Shown here: one piece after another, positions 583 to 44,589 of the stretch
How positions within the stretch are numbered: position 1 is the first letter of the stretch
Layout of the letters: the number at the start of each line of letters is the position of its first letter
From: a virus
DNA: 45,444 bases
Strand: one strand, 5' to 3'
IMG/VR virus record: IMGVR_UViG_3300027754_000166
Span: 1-45,444 of that record
Position numbers and translations under genes: made by a program
The notes under the pieces: generated by a model
Database searches by the model: none
What the model was told of the DNA's origin: nothing
What the model saw: the letters and a program-made list of their open reading frames with translations, nothing else

Positions 583-657
583 TGCGGGGTAGAGAAGTAG
601 GAACTCGCTTGGCTCATAACCAAGAGATCGCTGGTGCGAATCCAGCCCCCGCTACCA
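583..657 (+). tRNA. tRNA with CAT anticodon, initiator (fMet)-like
   Basis: A full cloverleaf of 75 bases with encoded CCA folds here. The anticodon loop CTCATAA lies on a CTTGG/CCAAG stem, and the T arm is GCTGG-TGCGAAT-CCAGC. The acceptor stem pairs at positions 2-7, but the first pair is T1.T72, a mismatch at the position where bacterial initiator tRNAs have C1.A72. The A11-T24 pair of initiators is also present. Only two of the three hallmark G-C pairs are found at the bottom of the anticodon stem, and the T loop has G where T55 is expected. It starts the rightward unit. An elongator Met or Ile2 tRNA is the alternative; the acceptor mismatch favours initiator. Confidence 0.85.
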
Positions 658-3966: not shown

Positions 3967-6075
3967 ATGAACTTAAAAGATAAATACAACGTCAGCGACC
4001 TCGTATATGAGGCTAATATTGCTGACCTTTTATGCAAAGAAGATTTAACGACAATTGGAGTTCAGATTGTTAGAGACTTTGACACTGATCTATTGTCTCG
4101 TGGTAGTTGGGAAAAACGTACTGAAGCTTCTTTAAAGCTTGCTTTACAAGTTGCTGAGACAAAGAATTTTCCTTGGGCTAATGCTTCTAACATAAAGTTT
4201 CCACTCATTACTATTGCTGCACTGCAATACCATGCCCGTAGTTATCCAGTCCTAATTGATAGCAACCTTCCTGTTAAGTGCCGTATTGTTGGTGATGACA
4301 AAGACGGTCAACGTGCTTTACGTTCAAGTCGTGTTGAACAACACATGAGCTACCAACTTCTTGAAGAGGATGAAGATTGGGAAGGAGAGATGGACAAAGT
4401 TCTTATTACGCAGCCTATTATTGGTTGTGCTTTTAAGAAAACTTATTATGATCCTATTCGCAAACATAACGTTTCTGAAAATGTTTTGGCTAAAGACTTG
4501 GTTGTTAACTACTGGACTAAAAGTTTAGAGACAGCTAGTCGAGTTACCCATGTTCTTCAAATGACTAAGAACGAAATCTACGAACGAGTAGCTCGTGGAT
4601 TGTGGTTAGAAGTATCTGAGGGTCGTCCTCAACAAAATGTTTCTGTTTCTATGGGTGGTGGTTTACAAAGAACCCAAGATAAAGCTCAAGGGTTAACCCC
4701 ACCTGAACCCAATGATTCAAGTACACCAGTTGAAATGCTTGAGCAACATTGCCACATAGACTTTGATGATGATGGTTACGCTGAACCTTACATTGTTTAT
4801 GTTCGTAAAGACAACAAACAAGTTGCTCGCATTGTTGCTAGGTACACTGAAAAAGATATTGAACGCAATAAAAAGGGTGATGTCATCCTTAGTATCAAAG
4901 CAGAGCAGTACTTTACTAAGTATCCTTTTATTCCATCTCCTGACGGTGGTTTTTACGACTTAGGTTTTGGAGTTCTTCTTGGGCCACTCAACGAATCAAT
5001 CAACACAATTGTCAACCAACTCGTTGATTCTGGCACTATGGCTAACACTGCTGGTGGATTTCTTAGCCGTGGTATTAAGCTTCGTGGTGGTAACTACTCC
5101 TTCAACCCAATGGAATGGAAGCATGTAGACACTACTGGGGATGATTTGCGTAAAGGCATTGTTCCTCTTCCTGTACGTGAACCTTCTCAGGTATTGTTTA
5201 CTCTGTTGAACTTGTTGATCAACTATGGTGAACGTATTGGTGGATCTGTAGACATTCTTTCTGGTCAGAATCCTGGTCAGAATACACCTGCTGAGACTAC
5301 CCGTACTATGGCTGAGCAAGGTATGAAGATATTTAATGGTATCTTTAAACGTACTCACCGTAGTTTGAAACAAGAGTTTCGCAAGTTGTATCGCCTCAAC
5401 CAAGTCTTTATTAATGAAGATACTGAGTATGTTTCAAATGCTGTAAGCAAGGGGCTTATTTTAGCTACTGACTACGACGGCCCTGTAACAGATGTCATGC
5501 CTACTGCTGATCCAAGCATTACCTCTGATGCACAACGTTTGCAACAAGCTATGGCTATTGCTCAACGAGTTGCTGTAACCCCAGGTTTATATGACCAGTA
5601 TGAAGTTGAAAACGCATTCCTTAAAGCAATCAAAGTTACAAACATTGAGAAACTTCTTCCTGATCCCAAGGGACCTAATGCTGTTCCTGTTCCACCTAAT
5701 CCTAAACTTCAAATTGAAGAGATGAAGATGCGGTCTAAACAGGCTGAAAGCGAACTGGCTATGAAGATGGGACTACTTAAACTTATGGGTGAAGCAGAAC
5801 TTAACCAAGCCAAGATTCAAAAACTGCAAGCAGAAGCAGAAGCTATCAAAATTGGTATTGCTACCGAAGGCGAAAAGATGCGTATTCAAGAAATCAACAC
5901 AAGTATTGCACTCAATCGTGAACGTAGAGAAGGTATTCTCAGATCAATTGATACCATGAACAAAGTCTACGCATCAATGGTGGGTAAACAAACAGAGCAA
6001 ATGTTACAGCAAGCACCTGAAAGTCAAATAATGGGGGGTATGGAACAAATGCAACAATCGCAACTACCTATGTAA
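3967..6075 (+). CDS. Portal protein, P22-like
   Basis: 702 residues, similar in length to the P22 portal and longer than the T7-type head-tail connector. A mid-protein block SGQNPGQNTPAETTRTM and the following helix-rich region match portal proteins of P22-like podoviruses. The C-terminal ~130 residues form a long coiled-coil region (Glu/Lys/Met-rich) that fits a barrel-type C-terminus and ends in a Gln/Met-rich tail. The protein forms the dodecameric DNA channel at one capsid vertex. It lies directly after the large terminase. Confidence 0.9.
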   Translation: MNLKDKYNVSDLVYEANIADLLCKEDLTTIGVQIVRDFDTDLLSRGSWEKRTEASLKLALQVAETKNFPWANASNIKFPLITIAALQYHARSYPVLIDSNLPVKCRIVGDDKDGQRALRSSRVEQHMSYQLLEEDEDWEGEMDKVLITQPIIGCAFKKTYYDPIRKHNVSENVLAKDLVVNYWTKSLETASRVTHVLQMTKNEIYERVARGLWLEVSEGRPQQNVSVSMGGGLQRTQDKAQGLTPPEPNDSSTPVEMLEQHCHIDFDDDGYAEPYIVYVRKDNKQVARIVARYTEKDIERNKKGDVILSIKAEQYFTKYPFIPSPDGGFYDLGFGVLLGPLNESINTIVNQLVDSGTMANTAGGFLSRGIKLRGGNYSFNPMEWKHVDTTGDDLRKGIVPLPVREPSQVLFTLLNLLINYGERIGGSVDILSGQNPGQNTPAETTRTMAEQGMKIFNGIFKRTHRSLKQEFRKLYRLNQVFINEDTEYVSNAVSKGLILATDYDGPVTDVMPTADPSITSDAQRLQQAMAIAQRVAVTPGLYDQYEVENAFLKAIKVTNIEKLLPDPKGPNAVPVPPNPKLQIEEMKMRSKQAESELAMKMGLLKLMGEAELNQAKIQKLQAEAEAIKIGIATEGEKMRIQEINTSIALNRERREGILRSIDTMNKVYASMVGKQTEQMLQQAPESQIMGGMEQMQQSQLPM

Positions 6076-38499: not shown

Positions 38500-38512
38500 A
38501 TTTTTAAAGCCC

Positions 38513-38545
38513 AAAATACATAGCCCTCCCTTGAAGGAAGGCTAT
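38513..38545 (-). terminator. Terminator/attenuator after the AAA+ gene
   Basis: On the minus strand, ATAGCCTTCC (38545-38536) pairs with GGGAGGGCTAT (38530-38520), ten pairs with one wobble, and a short loop; TATTTT follows. The T-tract is short, so read-through into the primase gene is likely. Confidence 0.7.
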
Positions 38546-38559
38546 ATGGTTTTGTAGTT

Positions 38560-39702
38560 TTAGATTTCTTTGTTACCGTAAATCTTGGTAAACAACTCAT
38601 CAGCAACCTTACGCTGTGTGTCGTTCAACTTGTTCAGGTAAACAAGACTGAAAGCTGCTCTCAAGGACATTCCAAAAGAAACCTTGTTGCAGATGCTGAA
38701 CAATGATCGTGGAGACATTGTTAGATTGAATTGGCTAGCTTTGTAGCCATTGCGGATCAGATTAGCCAGTTTGACAAGCTCTTTAGCTGTTTTAGTTGTG
38801 ATTGTTGTAGGCCATCTGTTAGTCAACATCTTTTCTTCAATAGAAGCTTCAAGATAATCAACGTAGATAGCAGTGCCAAACCGATCAAGAGTTGCAGAGT
38901 TCTGAACGTTAGTACCAGCATGTGCTCCAGTCTCGTCACCTTGGCCTTGTGTGTTGCCAATAGCTACGATCCTAAAATGCTCGTGAGGGACAATTTGTTT
39001 GTCTTTGGTACTTCCGGGCATCTCCTTCAAGAAAAGCTTGCCTTCGTCCTCTAAAAGCCATTGCAGACCCATAGAAATCTCTGGAGGAGTTACGTCCCAC
39101 TCATCCCAAGCAAACACAGCACCATAACGTACAGCTTCTGTTACAGCACCATCCACCCAGATTGTTGAACCCTCCTTAGCTGTCAACTGACCAAAGATCA
39201 TTGAGGTATCCATGTCCCCAGTACAATTAACCCGAACGAAAGGGCGACCAGTACGAGCACAAAGCTGCTCAATAAGACTAGATTTACCAGCCCCCGTAGG
39301 CCCGTAACAGAGTACTCTTTCATTTAATTCCCATGCTCTAAGAACGTTTGCAGCCAAGTCTTTGTCAATGACGTAGGCAGGATTGATACTAGGAACAAAT
39401 GAGGCTATACGTTCATCCCAAGGATAATCCGTAGCCATGTGTTTGAACATAGTGACACCGAAGTCTTCTCTATCAACAATCCAAAGCTCTTTGAACAAAT
39501 CTGAGAAATAGATTTGACTTGGTTTGAGTTCAGGGCGTGTTCTGACAGGGCCTTCTGGTGTTTCAGCCACATAAGTATCAGAAGCTATGTCGTATGTTGT
39601 TGTCTCTGTTGTTGAGACTCTACGTTTTTCCATTGCTTCTTTGATCTTGGTTTTAACAAGGTCTTCAACTTTTGTTGTGGTTTTGACTTCTGGGTCAGAC
39701 AT
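38560..39702 (-). CDS. MoxR/CobS-like AAA+ ATPase
   Basis: 380 residues. After a charged N-terminus, the AAA+ core shows Walker A GPTGAGKS (134-141), Walker B VFAWDEWD (196-203), sensor 1 AIGNTQ (247-252) and the arginine-finger region LDRF (R274). The order and spacing match the CobS/MoxR group, which act as chaperones for VWA-domain partners. The gene upstream (overlap of eight bases) codes such a partner. Phages carry this pair widely, without a known function; cobalamin synthesis is unlikely here, as no other such genes exist. Confidence 0.88.
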   Translation of the reverse strand: MSDPEVKTTTKVEDLVKTKIKEAMEKRRVSTTETTTYDIASDTYVAETPEGPVRTRPELKPSQIYFSDLFKELWIVDREDFGVTMFKHMATDYPWDERIASFVPSINPAYVIDKDLAANVLRAWELNERVLCYGPTGAGKSSLIEQLCARTGRPFVRVNCTGDMDTSMIFGQLTAKEGSTIWVDGAVTEAVRYGAVFAWDEWDVTPPEISMGLQWLLEDEGKLFLKEMPGSTKDKQIVPHEHFRIVAIGNTQGQGDETGAHAGTNVQNSATLDRFGTAIYVDYLEASIEEKMLTNRWPTTITTKTAKELVKLANLIRNGYKASQFNLTMSPRSLFSICNKVSFGMSLRAAFSLVYLNKLNDTQRKVADELFTKIYGNKEI

Positions 39703-41500
39703 TGATGATCTTCCTTTCTATGAGTTCTAACAACTTGCTTGGTATTTCTTCTGGTTTGTTGACTATGCTGTGTGATTGGTAGTAACCCTGTACTGAGCTG
39801 CTACACAAACCCAAACCATAAATGTCAACTGACTTTGCTTTCTCTATTTCTTTGATTACTGTGTCTGTGAATTTGCCTATTCCAAAAGAACTTTTAGAAG
39901 CTGCTGGACTGCCATCAGACATGACAATTAGCAATTTCTTTTTCTCTTTACGTTTAATAAGTCGATCATGCGCCCAAAGAATATTTTCGCCATCAGGGTT
40001 TCCAGTCATATGGGAACTACTTAATTCAAAATATTTCTTTATTGCATCTGAATCAACTTTTAAATCAGAAAAACTCTTATAGATAAACATCATGGGAACC
40101 CAATCAGTAAATCCATTAAGTTTTCCATCAGTAAATCCAACAATTTCAAGAGGAATATTTAAAGTTGAACAGACTTCATTGACTAACAATGTAGAAGCTA
40201 GAGCGTAATACGCTTTCATTCCTTGCATAGACCCAGACATATCAACCAGTACGGTGATAGCAGCATCCAATGTTTTGTTGTCAATCTTGTTCTTAAACAC
40301 ACGCTCATTGAACCCAGGTGCATCAAAACAGATACGAGACAACCTAGATTGATCTAACTTGCCCTTTTTGACTCCGTATTGACGTTGTACCTTAGCTTTG
40401 ATTTGAATCAATCTACGAACTTGTTGAGCAAAGTTTTCTTGTGAAACCAATTGTGGTTCAACATCATCACGATACTCTTTGAGAAACTTAGAGGGTTTTC
40501 TAAGTGTGAGATAGTGCTCTGGACCTGTGTTCTTGGGATAATCAACGATTATAAATTTCTCATAGTCAGTTAAGTCCCAACCATCTTTTTCTTTTACGGG
40601 TTCAAAGTTGATACCAACCTTACCCATGTCCTCACCATCTTCGTTGTGCATAGTCAAAGAATATGCAGCCAGCTCATCTTCAGTTATCTTTAGCTCAATA
40701 ACTTTGTACTCTTCGTATTTAGGTTTAGCCTTCTCATCACCATTAGCTTTACCTGATTTGTCTTCCTCGGCTTCTCCCTCTGCCTTTTCTTCTCCACCAG
40801 GCTTTTTTAGGCTACCTTCACCTTCGCCCTTTACAGGTTTAGCAGGTATTGGCTTCAGTTCAGCTTTGCACTCTTCACCAAGTTTTTTGAGGATGTCTAT
40901 AGCCAATTGGTAGGTTGCTTCAGTGCCTATTTCTTTATCCAAGATCGTATAACAATGAGTAAGACGATCAGTAAAGTTATTAAGAACATCCAGAACCTTC
41001 TTGTTAGGAGTTGCTTTGCTTACAGCAAGTTCTATTTGAGGAAACATAGAACTTGTTAGAACCACTTCCCAACAAAACATAGCTGTGATGAGTGTTGAAG
41101 CTGGAGTTGGTTCTTCCTTGCATCTTTTTATGATCTGTTCGATCAATATAGAGCTGCAATCATCCCAGTTCTCCTTGAAACCACGGTACTCTACAGCCTC
41201 AATGTAGTTAATTCTGGAATCTTCTAGGAAGTTCCATACAAACATCAACATACCTTGAGGGTGCAGTTCTTTTTTCTTAAGAACATCAAACGAACTAAAA
41301 CGATCATGGGCCACTTCGTGATCCGTTGATGCCATTAGTTGTTTGAGTTCTAACTCCGTGGTTGTGGTAACAATCCTAGGCAGATAGATGGTTTTGCCAT
41401 CATGTCTAGGTTGATTAGCATCTTCAAATACAACGGAAATGCCAGCTCTGCCAGCACTTGCACGTATGTATTTCATTACTTCAATGCCTTTAGTCAGCAT
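39695..41500 (-). CDS. Zincin-like VWA protein (CobT-like), partner of AAA+ ATPase
   Basis: 601 residues. Near the N-terminus HEVAH (H61, E62, H65) is an HExxH zincin motif with LEDSR (E93) downstream as a possible third ligand. A highly charged linker (about 225-270, Glu/Lys/Gly-rich) follows, then a helical region, and a C-terminal VWA domain with the MIDAS motif DMSGSM near residue 419, then VMSDGSP. The MoxR/CobS-like ATPase follows and overlaps by eight bases. Together they could remodel or cut a target protein. The start overlaps the stop of the gene before (TAATG). Confidence 0.85.
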   Translation of the reverse strand: MLTKGIEVMKYIRASAGRAGISVVFEDANQPRHDGKTIYLPRIVTTTTELELKQLMASTDHEVAHDRFSSFDVLKKKELHPQGMLMFVWNFLEDSRINYIEAVEYRGFKENWDDCSSILIEQIIKRCKEEPTPASTLITAMFCWEVVLTSSMFPQIELAVSKATPNKKVLDVLNNFTDRLTHCYTILDKEIGTEATYQLAIDILKKLGEECKAELKPIPAKPVKGEGEGSLKKPGGEEKAEGEAEEDKSGKANGDEKAKPKYEEYKVIELKITEDELAAYSLTMHNEDGEDMGKVGINFEPVKEKDGWDLTDYEKFIIVDYPKNTGPEHYLTLRKPSKFLKEYRDDVEPQLVSQENFAQQVRRLIQIKAKVQRQYGVKKGKLDQSRLSRICFDAPGFNERVFKNKIDNKTLDAAITVLVDMSGSMQGMKAYYALASTLLVNEVCSTLNIPLEIVGFTDGKLNGFTDWVPMMFIYKSFSDLKVDSDAIKKYFELSSSHMTGNPDGENILWAHDRLIKRKEKKKLLIVMSDGSPAASKSSFGIGKFTDTVIKEIEKAKSVDIYGLGLCSSSVQGYYQSHSIVNKPEEIPSKLLELIERKIINV

Positions 41501-41949
41501 TATTTACCACTCGCATTCACAAACTCCTTCACAAGTTTGAACACTTTGAGAGCATCCATACCTTCAGGGACATTCATCAAGTTCCTAATAACTTTGTTGG
41601 CATAATCTTCAGCACTGGTTTCTTCCTTGGGAATCTTCAGTTCTTTGATCTTGTTTTGCAGAAATGTTTTACCGCAATAGCTTCCATTGTCATCAATGAG
41701 CTTAATGCTGAGCTTCATAGCTGTGTGAATGACTGACTTAGCTGATCTCCAAGGACCTGGCATCGAACTGACTTCATAGTCTTTCTTGATTTGCTTCTCA
41801 GTATCTCGCAGGTCTTTAGCAAACGTATCAACTGAGCTATGCGTAAACGCAACAGCTATCATCTTCTCGAATGTACTTGTAGCTGAAGCATCTGAGACAA
41901 GACTCTCAGTAGCAGCAGCATACAAAGTGGACATCATGTGAGCATCCAT
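41500..41949 (-). CDS. Protein of unknown function behind a structured leader
   Basis: 149 residues from ATG 41949 with GGGAG seven bases upstream. Mostly helical with a Ser/Thr-rich start and SAKSVIHTAMKLSIKLIDDNGSYCG in the middle. No family is recognised. It directly precedes the VWA gene (TAATG), so it may work with that pair. The two-hairpin RNA at 41965-42007 is in its leader. Confidence 0.72.
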   Translation of the reverse strand: MDAHMMSTLYAAATESLVSDASATSTFEKMIAVAFTHSSVDTFAKDLRDTEKQIKKDYEVSSMPGPWRSAKSVIHTAMKLSIKLIDDNGSYCGKTFLQNKIKELKIPKEETSAEDYANKVIRNLMNVPEGMDALKVFKLVKEFVNASGK

Positions 41950-41964: not shown

Positions 41965-42007
41965 AGGCAACATCGCCTAAATACAGCTCTAGTGATAAAG
42001 CTGTATT
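41965..42007 (-). promoter_or_regulatory. Structured two-hairpin leader, copy 1
   Basis: On the minus strand, AATACAGCT (42007-41999) pairs with AGCTGTATT (41988-41980) around the ten-base loop TTATCACTAG. One base later AGGCG-ATGT-TGCCT (41978-41965) forms a second hairpin. The gene at 41949 starts 15 bases on. The same architecture occurs in copy 2 (42461-42419), and stem changes are compensatory, which shows that the RNA fold matters. It may be a binding site for a translational regulator. Confidence 0.8.
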
Positions 42008-42018
42008 GAAGCAAGCTG

Positions 42019-42402
42019 TTATAGCGAATTAATTAAGTCCAATACTTCTTGAGCATCTCCAGACAAATACAACTTGTCTTGCAACTCTTGCTGAAGTTTG
42101 TCGTACTTAGCATCAATGTCAGCTCGTTTCTTTTGTTGATCGTTGTACTTTTTATCAAAGCTATTTGGAAAAACAAAGAATTTTCCTAGAACATCGGCTC
42201 TGTATTCATTGTTCCAGGTACGCATAAACGTGGCTTTATCTACCAAAGGAGATTTAGTTTTAGATAAAAACTCATATAGAGCTTGTGGGTCATTGAGTGC
42301 AGAAGACACGTTTTCTTGTGGATACTCTGCATATTGTTTTTCTCTGATTTTGTCTCTCATACGACATAGGGCGTAATCAAGTTGTTGTTTGGTGAGCTTC
42401 AT
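42019..42402 (-). CDS. Protein of unknown function behind a structured leader
   Basis: 127 residues, helical and charged, with a coiled coil near the C-terminus (KYNDQQKKRADIDAKYDKLQ onward). Ribosome site GAGGAA is at 42407-42412. No family is recognised, and I see no similarity to the protein at 41500-41949, although both genes have the same structured leader. Confidence 0.72.
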   Translation of the reverse strand: MKLTKQQLDYALCRMRDKIREKQYAEYPQENVSSALNDPQALYEFLSKTKSPLVDKATFMRTWNNEYRADVLGKFFVFPNSFDKKYNDQQKKRADIDAKYDKLQQELQDKLYLSGDAQEVLDLINSL

Positions 42403-42418
42403 GTGTGTTCCTCTCTAA

Positions 42419-42461
42419 AGGCAACATTGCCTAGATATGATCCTATTGCTAAGACCATATC
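42419..42461 (-). promoter_or_regulatory. Structured two-hairpin leader, copy 2
   Basis: On the minus strand, GATATGGTC (42461-42453) pairs with GATCATATC (42442-42434) around the ten-base loop TTAGCAATAG. One base later AGGCA-ATGT-TGCCT (42432-42419) forms the second hairpin. The start codon at 42402 follows 16 bases later. Compared with copy 1, five of nine stem pairs change on both sides and keep pairing. Confidence 0.8.
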
Positions 42462-42469
42462 GAAGTTTG

Positions 42470-42604
42470 TTACGCGAGTTCGTCTTCAAATAATTCCAAT
42501 TGTTGTTGTACTGTCTCATCCTCGAAAGGGGTGTCGATGTTAATGCTTACCAGAACATCGTCATAATCATTTGATTCTATGAACCACAAGACTTGATTGA
42601 ACAT
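42470..42604 (-). CDS. Tiny acidic protein
   Basis: 44 residues with a strong AAGGAG site seven bases before the start. Very acidic, FNQVLWFIESNDYDDVLVSI onward and ending LELFEDELA, with alternating strands. It could mimic DNA or inhibit a host protein, as many tiny acidic early phage proteins do, but this is inference. Copy 2 of the structured leader starts a few bases after its stop. Confidence 0.7.
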   Translation of the reverse strand: MFNQVLWFIESNDYDDVLVSINIDTPFEDETVQQQLELFEDELA

Positions 42605-42762
42605 AACTATCTCCTTGAAAAGTTAAAGAGGGCGAAGCCATCCCCGCCCTGACCCTGCGGGGTGGCTAGCCCGATAATGAATCTGAGCGAAGCCCATCGC
42701 AAGCCCCTGCCACAAAGCGAAGCGACTGGCGGGAATAGGCTTGCCGGGCTGAGCGAACAACA
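42605..42762 (-). other. GC-rich structured gap between early genes
   Basis: 158 bases without a gene, much richer in GC than its surroundings. It holds CCCCGC/GCGGGG (42642-42647 with 42657-42662), the palindrome GGCTAGCC (42664-42671) and three copies of GCGAAGC. It looks like a folded RNA or an imported repeat element; no coding frame is convincing. Confidence 0.6.
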
Positions 42763-42972
42763 TCACTGAGTTTTGCTCCATTGAGCATATTCATCAGCAG
42801 CCTCTTGGATCATTGCTTTCTGATCTTCTTCGTAGAGATCATTGAATGGAACAAAGTGATTCTCTTGACAACAAGAGATCTTGCCATCTTGAGGCTGTAA
42901 ACAATAACAGCAGTAGTTACCCCTACTACGTAGGTCATCTTCAAGTCCTAACAGAAAGTCTTTCATTCTCAT
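42763..42972 (-). CDS. Small cysteine-rich protein
   Basis: 69 residues. CCYC (C21, C22, C24) and CC (C34, C35) could bind zinc; the C-terminal half is an acidic helix (DLYEEDQKAMIQEAADEYAQ). It starts within the stop of the zinc-ribbon gene upstream (ATGA). The role is unknown. Confidence 0.7.
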   Translation of the reverse strand: MRMKDFLLGLEDDLRSRGNYCCYCLQPQDGKISCCQENHFVPFNDLYEEDQKAMIQEAADEYAQWSKTQ

Positions 42973-43983: not shown

Positions 43984-44015
43984 AAAAAAAAAGGTAGTGG
44001 AGTGAACCACTACCT
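43984..44015 (-). terminator. Rho-independent terminator
   Basis: On the minus strand, AGGTAGTGG (44015-44007) pairs with CCACTACCT (44000-43992) around TTCACT, followed by a run of eight or nine Ts. It ends the transcript of the small gene at 44024-44248. Confidence 0.93.
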
Positions 44016-44248: not shown

Positions 44249-44567
44249 TTTTACTGCTCCTTTAGGTTGATGAAGTGAAGGGGATTCGCCCCCCTCACCA
44301 AAGCTGGACGTGGTGGCTAGGGCCGCCCACAGGCGGCACGCAGTTCCGACGAAAGGAGGAATTGGCAACGCAGATGGCCGTGCCAGGACTTTGGGGTAGG
44401 GGCCCCGCTGGCGCGGAGCTCTGCACTGCCAACCACCACAAGAAGCTGGGGGGCGCAATCCACAAACGCACAGCTACCAAAAGAGCTTGGCTCAGCTCAT
44501 ACGACAAGACAATGCTAAGACCTTACTGTTGCAAACCAAGGTTGTTACTAGGAACATAGCGGAGTAG
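44249..44567 (-). other. GC-rich leader or ncRNA region
   Basis: 319 bases between a terminator and the gene at 44248. The stretch 44280-44460 is far richer in GC than the phage average and holds strong hairpins such as GCCGCC/GGCGGC (44322-44337) and GGGGCCCC (44399-44406). Open frames cross it, but none has a good start and ribosome site. It may be a folded leader or an RNA product, with a promoter near 44480-44560. Confidence 0.55.
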
Positions 44568-44589
44568 AAAAAAAACCCGCCGAAGCGGG
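44568..44589 (-). terminator. Rho-independent terminator after first early gene
   Basis: On the minus strand, CCCGC (44589-44585), TTCG tetraloop and GCGGG (44580-44576), followed by eight Ts (44575-44568). It is a compact, strong terminator. Confidence 0.93.

Follow-up and report, generated by a model that had tools for sequence, protein, structure and literature searches.

Gene Context of the Two Leaders

The window analyzed here, which is the whole 45,444-base IMG/VR record, carries a minus-strand gene cluster in which a CobT-like VWA protein and a CobS-like AAA+ protein are encoded downstream of two smaller genes, hereafter gene A and gene B (table 1). The cobS- and cobT-like genes of Vibrio phage ICP2 are arranged as in these phages. 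Gene A is highly conserved (MPGPWRS motif region) and invariably precedes the cobT-like gene; its relatives occur in dozens of viral contigs, and it yields a confident helical structural model that matches solely unnamed phage proteins, with nothing credible among solved structures. It found no match in known phages, nor any in bacterial genomes, so that no prophage was seen; gene B likewise found no match in known phages. About 3 kb into the cluster, and adjoining the start codons of both genes, lie two copies of an element (A and B, read on the minus strand) composed of two consecutive hairpins.

Table 1. Features of the window, with proposed roles where given.
Feature	Positions	Strand	Description
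Intrinsic-terminator-like site	44576-44589	-	Strong; T8 tail; within the early gene cluster, along the gene direction
Intrinsic-terminator-like site	43992-44015	-	Strong; T8 tail; within the early gene cluster, along the gene direction
GC-rich tracts	42600-42780; ~44290-44460		Many short inverted repeats, variable intergenic stretches; genome otherwise 40% GC
CUU directly upstream of element B	42463..42465	-	Possible pairing partner of AGG in hairpin 2, giving an alternative fold
Hairpin 1, element B	42433..42462	-	Stem of 12 bp, GCAA tetraloop, basal C/U mismatch; putative RNase III site
Hairpin 2, element B	42419..42432	-	AGGCAATGTTGCCT; would form the 5′ end of the downstream mRNA after a putative cut at 42433|42432 (placed from the T7 R1.1 register, PMC8708148)
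SD-like purine-rich sequence, gene B	42409..42416	-	Read from the sequence
Gene B	42019..42402	-	127 aa, no known family
CUU directly upstream of element A	42009..42011	-	Three bases before hairpin 1
Hairpin 1, element A	41979..42008	-	12-bp stem, UCAC tetraloop; proposed RNase III site
Hairpin 2, element A	41965..41978	-	AGGCGATGTTGCCT; proposed cut 41979|41978
Gene A	41500..41949	-	149 aa, helical protein without known family
CobT-like VWA protein	39695..41500	-	Downstream of gene A
CobS-like AAA+ protein	38560..39702	-	
Second RNA structure	38505..38562	-	Follows the stop codon of the cobS-like gene; a lower stem plus a long upper one
tRNA gene	583-654	+	Near the left end of the phage record

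The coordinates of both leaders agree with those of an earlier note on this DNA, and recounting the nine outer stem pairs of hairpin 1 gave the same result, namely five pairs that differ on both sides between A and B yet remain paired and one that has become G·U. Agreement extends to the spacer base, to AGGC(G/A)-ATGT-TGCCT as the second hairpin, and to the start codons, which lie 15 and 16 bases downstream. What had been drawn as a nine-pair stem with a ten-base loop, however, is paired further in: within the loop, TTA pairs with TAG (U·G, U-A, A-U), so that both stems comprise 12 pairs closed by a tetraloop. The two elements have folding z-scores of -3.0 and -4.8. A long stem alone is not unusual in this AT-rich window, which holds six hairpins of at least 12 pairs when shuffles of one strand hold 2–7. 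Since long hairpins as such are not rare here, the case for the element rests on comparison, and chance is ruled out by its recurrence in relatives, not by stem length.

A few familiar elements were also considered. An intrinsic terminator was rejected on the grounds that there is no U-tract, AGGC following hairpin 1 directly, and that neither element is among the terminator-like sites; a REP/IS200 hairpin was rejected given that the stem sequence is not conserved between copies; and a CRISPR-repeat mimic was set aside.

Recurrence of the Element in Related Phages

The search in related phages that the earlier note had proposed was carried out with a covariance model built from 11 equal-length alleles and run over 61 loci (cmsearch), in which scores reached 65 bits (E about 1e-15) and nearly all matches of at least 26 bits were to the same element type on the coding strand. 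At least one strong match is present in 26 of 27 related phage records, with one to three per record and nothing comparable elsewhere in them, when the 27th record (L046) carries a diverged copy that is visible by eye. The note had held that homologous phages with the leader but without stem conservation would speak against it; instead, the stems are kept across alleles. The carriers form a large group of uncultured podovirus-like phages. Searches with the DNA of the element region found no match in known phages, and the covariance model found none in ICP2. A DNA pattern search of IMG/VR (hairpin 2 followed by GGAG) returned mostly hairpin 2 alone, likely by chance, and only a handful of matches with hairpin 1.

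The element almost always lies on the coding strand, in the gap from one gene's stop codon to the start codon that follows. Its distance from the upstream stop codon is most often 7, 8, or 10 nt and that to the start codon most often 14–17 nt, with the SD in the latter stretch, about 5 nt past hairpin 2. Upstream of gene A, it is carried by nearly every relative with sufficient sequence there, and the families of genes that it stands ahead of number at least nine (gene A, gene B, and genes of 162, 143, 117, 67, 55, about 45, and 35 residues). Upstream of gene A in L071 and L073, the same place is held by a pair of neighboring hairpins whose sequences are entirely unrelated to those of the element (AAGCATCC/GGGTGCTT and TACTGC/GCAGTA), and in L011, hairpin 2 is maintained by different bases. 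Ahead of the 35-residue gene that lies upstream of gene A, an element is present in L011, whose contig start shows hairpin 2, and absent in L003 and L008, where TAACAAACTT leads directly into the SD. The loop of hairpin 2 varies (AUGU, AUUU, AUCU, AUCC), on which ground an upstream start codon in that loop was rejected.

Covarying, Fixed, and Competing Pairs

Among 18 alleles, 94.8% of the cells of hairpins 1 and 2 are paired; shuffles give 71.8% and slid versions no more than 49.4%. Covariation reaches 0.637 against 0.161 in shuffles, with the pairing counts here and below biased toward the structure by the non-independence of the alleles and by a model alignment fitted to it. The proposal that selection acts on the structure of this RNA is thereby strongly supported. 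In hairpin 1, whose stem spans 12–14 bp in nearly all alleles, pairs 3–5 from the junction with hairpin 2 are conserved and A/U-rich (mostly A-U, U-A, A-U). Across 34 alleles, pairs 6–10 show free compensatory variation with four to five pair types each, pair 11 is U·G in 32 alleles and C-G in the other 2, and pair 12 is U-A in all 34. The U·G/U-A step played no part in the selection of alleles, and a wobble that stays fixed while the rest of the stem varies freely finds no easy explanation in the DNA, which calls for recognition of the RNA.

The three bases before hairpin 1 (usually CUU) can furthermore pair with the first three of hairpin 2, as is possible in 122 of 126 cells (42 alleles). 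In several alleles, UGG replaces AGG at the start of hairpin 2 and the three bases upstream have become ACA, UCA, or CUG, and covariation of this CUU:AGG type has a permutation p of about 0.001 (20 hand-listed alleles). Conservation thus extends to two competing folds, namely the two-hairpin fold and an extended fold of 16 pairs (95.5% of cells paired), which are mutually exclusive and usually lie within 0–4 kcal/mol of each other in computed energy. Neither covers the SD, the element being located between the stop codon and the SD.

That location, together with stems that are stable in all alleles, is what would be expected of a passive spacer or stabilizer, that is, of generic hairpins that block exonucleases and insulate ribosomes with no specific enzyme involved. 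We consider this very improbable, because a generic hairpin needs neither a U·G/U-A step at a fixed distance nor a competing third helix.

The earlier note had suggested instead that a phage protein binds the element and represses or couples the two genes. Such an operator might serve an RNA-binding protein (e.g., the gene A product, a CobS/CobT partner) that would repress or couple translation. The highly conserved sequence of hairpin 2 (GGC, AUnU loop) would fit such a binding site, as would the almost constant adjacency of gene A to an element and an SD as close as about 5 nt past hairpin 2. An operator is harder to reconcile with an element that stands ahead of at least nine unrelated genes, is missing before some copies of the same genes, and leaves the SD outside both of its folds; no RNA-binding family or fold was found for gene A, and the distal box and the junction register described below would be left unexplained. 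On this basis, the operator appears unlikely.

A Probable RNase III Processing Signal

We consider it probable that the element is an mRNA processing signal of the early operon, with hairpin 1 as a putative RNase III site and hairpin 2 as the start of the downstream mRNA. Detailed knowledge of RNase III control of early phage mRNA comes mainly from T7 and its kin. For the Escherichia coli enzyme, the distal box UU/AG lies 10–11 bp and the proximal box CWUW/WAWG 2–5 bp from the center of cleavage (PMC5141509), and a 12-bp stem with a tetraloop is enough for single-strand cleavage (PMC8708148), when the RNase III of Sinorhizobium meliloti has other length and sequence needs (PMC6121014). A distance of 10–11 from the cleavage center is equivalent to about 11–12 from the 3′-strand cut, and the U·G/U-A step sits at pairs 11–12; if the RNA is cut at the junction, this fixed step would thus be the published distal box at the published distance. 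In the proximal region, pairs 3–5 agree with CWUW/WAWG solely in being A/U-rich, their middle pair being flipped with respect to it. Hairpin 1 also resembles uR1.1, a minimal substrate of the E. coli enzyme with a 12-bp stem, a tetraloop, and one box set (PMC8708148), although uR1.1 is engineered and has no second hairpin.

The register of the predicted cut comes from T7. In an unfiltered search, the best match of the model in the T7 genome is a single one at 5861–5884 (E = 0.0048), which is the upper stem of R1.1, and this alignment places the end of hairpin 1 (model position 30) on nt 5887. R1.1 is cut at nt 5887 (PMC8708148), and since position 30 aligns with this nucleotide, the 5887|5888 cut maps onto the junction between hairpins 1 and 2. 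The T3 early region, for which five RNase III sites are annotated, yielded no match with the model. Among 11 T7/T3 sites, U·G and C-G are the sole pairs at position 11 when counting starts 3 nt past the upper stem, where the cut of every site but R1.1 was placed as on the T7 map; position 12 is often U-A. Beside the predicted cut, 16 of 18 alleles have a U·G or a mismatch, comparable to the internal loop of R1.1 at its cut.

The T7/T3 sites (R0.3, R0.5, R1, R1.1, R1.3) are likewise intergenic hairpins of an early operon ahead of a start codon, with a comparable placement between the stop codon (here usually 7–10 nt upstream) and an SD just downstream. Their upper stem of 9–11 bp, with a GCAA-type loop in some, is similar to hairpin 1, and the single cut of R1.1 3′ of its stem is similar to the proposed cut at the junction. 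They differ in their lower stem and asymmetric internal loop with a shared AAGG/CCUU, whereas the stem sequence of the element varies between copies and its lower stem is cut down to a possible helix of three pairs that competes with a second hairpin from the downstream RNA, the T7 lower stem and internal loop being replaced by these three pairs or by stacking of hairpin 2. No feature of T7-type sites that could be cleanly tested here failed, but as the T7 lower-stem layout is only partly present, we would claim more firmly that the element works like a T7-type RNase III site than that it is one. The view that no element of this shape had been described still holds for the two-hairpin unit, which found no match among Rfam covariance models, but not for hairpin 1, in which length, distal box, and register are those of a T7-type site.

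In the processing that we propose, hairpin 1 would be a minimal RNase III substrate with its stem of 12–13 bp, tetraloop, and distal box. Before the cut, CUU (in most alleles) would pair with the AGG of hairpin 2 and extend the helix past the cut site, after which host RNase III would make a single cut in the RNA, at the hairpin junction or beside it, as in T7 R1.1. The upstream message would then end in hairpin 1, with a protected 3′ end, and the release of AGGC by the cut would allow hairpin 2 to form, so that the downstream message would begin with a hairpin that protects it from 5′-end-dependent decay and would keep a free SD about 5 nt further on. Against the RNase III reading, the sequence of hairpin 2 is conserved beyond what a generic 5′ protector would need.

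A different role for two tandem stem-loops in phage early RNA is known from HK022, whose put RNA modifies RNA polymerase and suppresses downstream terminators. No clear sigma70 promoter was found near the two T8 terminator-like sites of the window, and the early operon may need antitermination or unrecognized promoters. The overall size is similar, with an unpaired base between the stem-loops, and terminator-like sites are present in the operon. The put sites are, however, near early promoters and have stems with internal loops, non-canonical pairs, and a triplex (PMC9378689), when the stems here are regular, stand beside start codons, and occur up to three times per phage, and the two strongest terminator-like sites are upstream of the elements. 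The element thus differs from putRNA in internal structure, in position, and, most likely, in function, and a put-like role seems extremely improbable.

Modular Exchange at the Hairpin Junction

When alleles are compared pairwise, identity often differs sharply between the two sides of the junction, the upstream part with hairpin 1 and the downstream part with hairpin 2. Element B of the window and L001 are 98% identical upstream and 73% downstream, element A and L001 are conversely 62% and 98% identical, and L010 and L049 are 100% and 67% identical. By these comparisons, hairpin 1 travels with the upstream gene and hairpin 2 with the downstream one, with recombination at the junction, a linkage that would be expected if the mRNA is divided there.

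The elements mark a region where small genes are gained and lost and where the flanking genes vary. Together with exchange points at the junction, this could also reflect a recombination joint, in which a conserved core would let small genes be swapped as cassettes, in the way of the PeSLs of T4-type phages or of attC (folding of single-stranded DNA). PeSLs, as cited in PMC4503421, are promoter–terminator composites and, like the elements, intergenic hairpins in a region of gene shuffling, but neither the promoter nor the U-tract of that description was found in the elements: on the coding strand near them, no sigma70-like promoter was matched, and there is no room for one between hairpin 2 and the start codon. 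The conserved U·G wobble and the one-strand orientation point to RNA, and shuffling may be a by-product of any conserved intergenic signal, so that a role in recombination as such seems improbable.

Returning to RNase III processing, a more specific version can be put forward as a tentative possibility, in which the joint would be bistable: the CUU:AGG pairing would build the RNase III site, the cut would let AGGC refold as the 5′-protecting hairpin, and the same joint would be the swap point of the small genes. If this were true, each swapped-in gene would automatically receive its own 3′ hairpin and its own 5′ hairpin. More generally, modular exchange at the proposed cut would tie RNA processing to gene shuffling, and the dozens of natural alleles, with their variable and fixed pairs, are a ready data set on RNase III recognition.

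A Second Structure after the cobS-Like Gene

Nearly all relatives (L004–L074) have a covarying structure between the cobS-like and primase genes, in the position of the second RNA structure of the window. In these relatives, it has the layout of a T7 R site, with a lower stem, an asymmetric internal loop, and an upper stem of 10–11 bp, and it is the only site here with the full T7 layout. This structure supports RNase III processing of the operon independently of the two-hairpin element, and these phages carry apparent RNase III sites in two designs, in one of which a second hairpin competes for the same bases. In L028 (8359, plus strand), an extra hairpin (CGTAGGCAAACCTACTCTACG) is inserted at the apex of the site after cobS.
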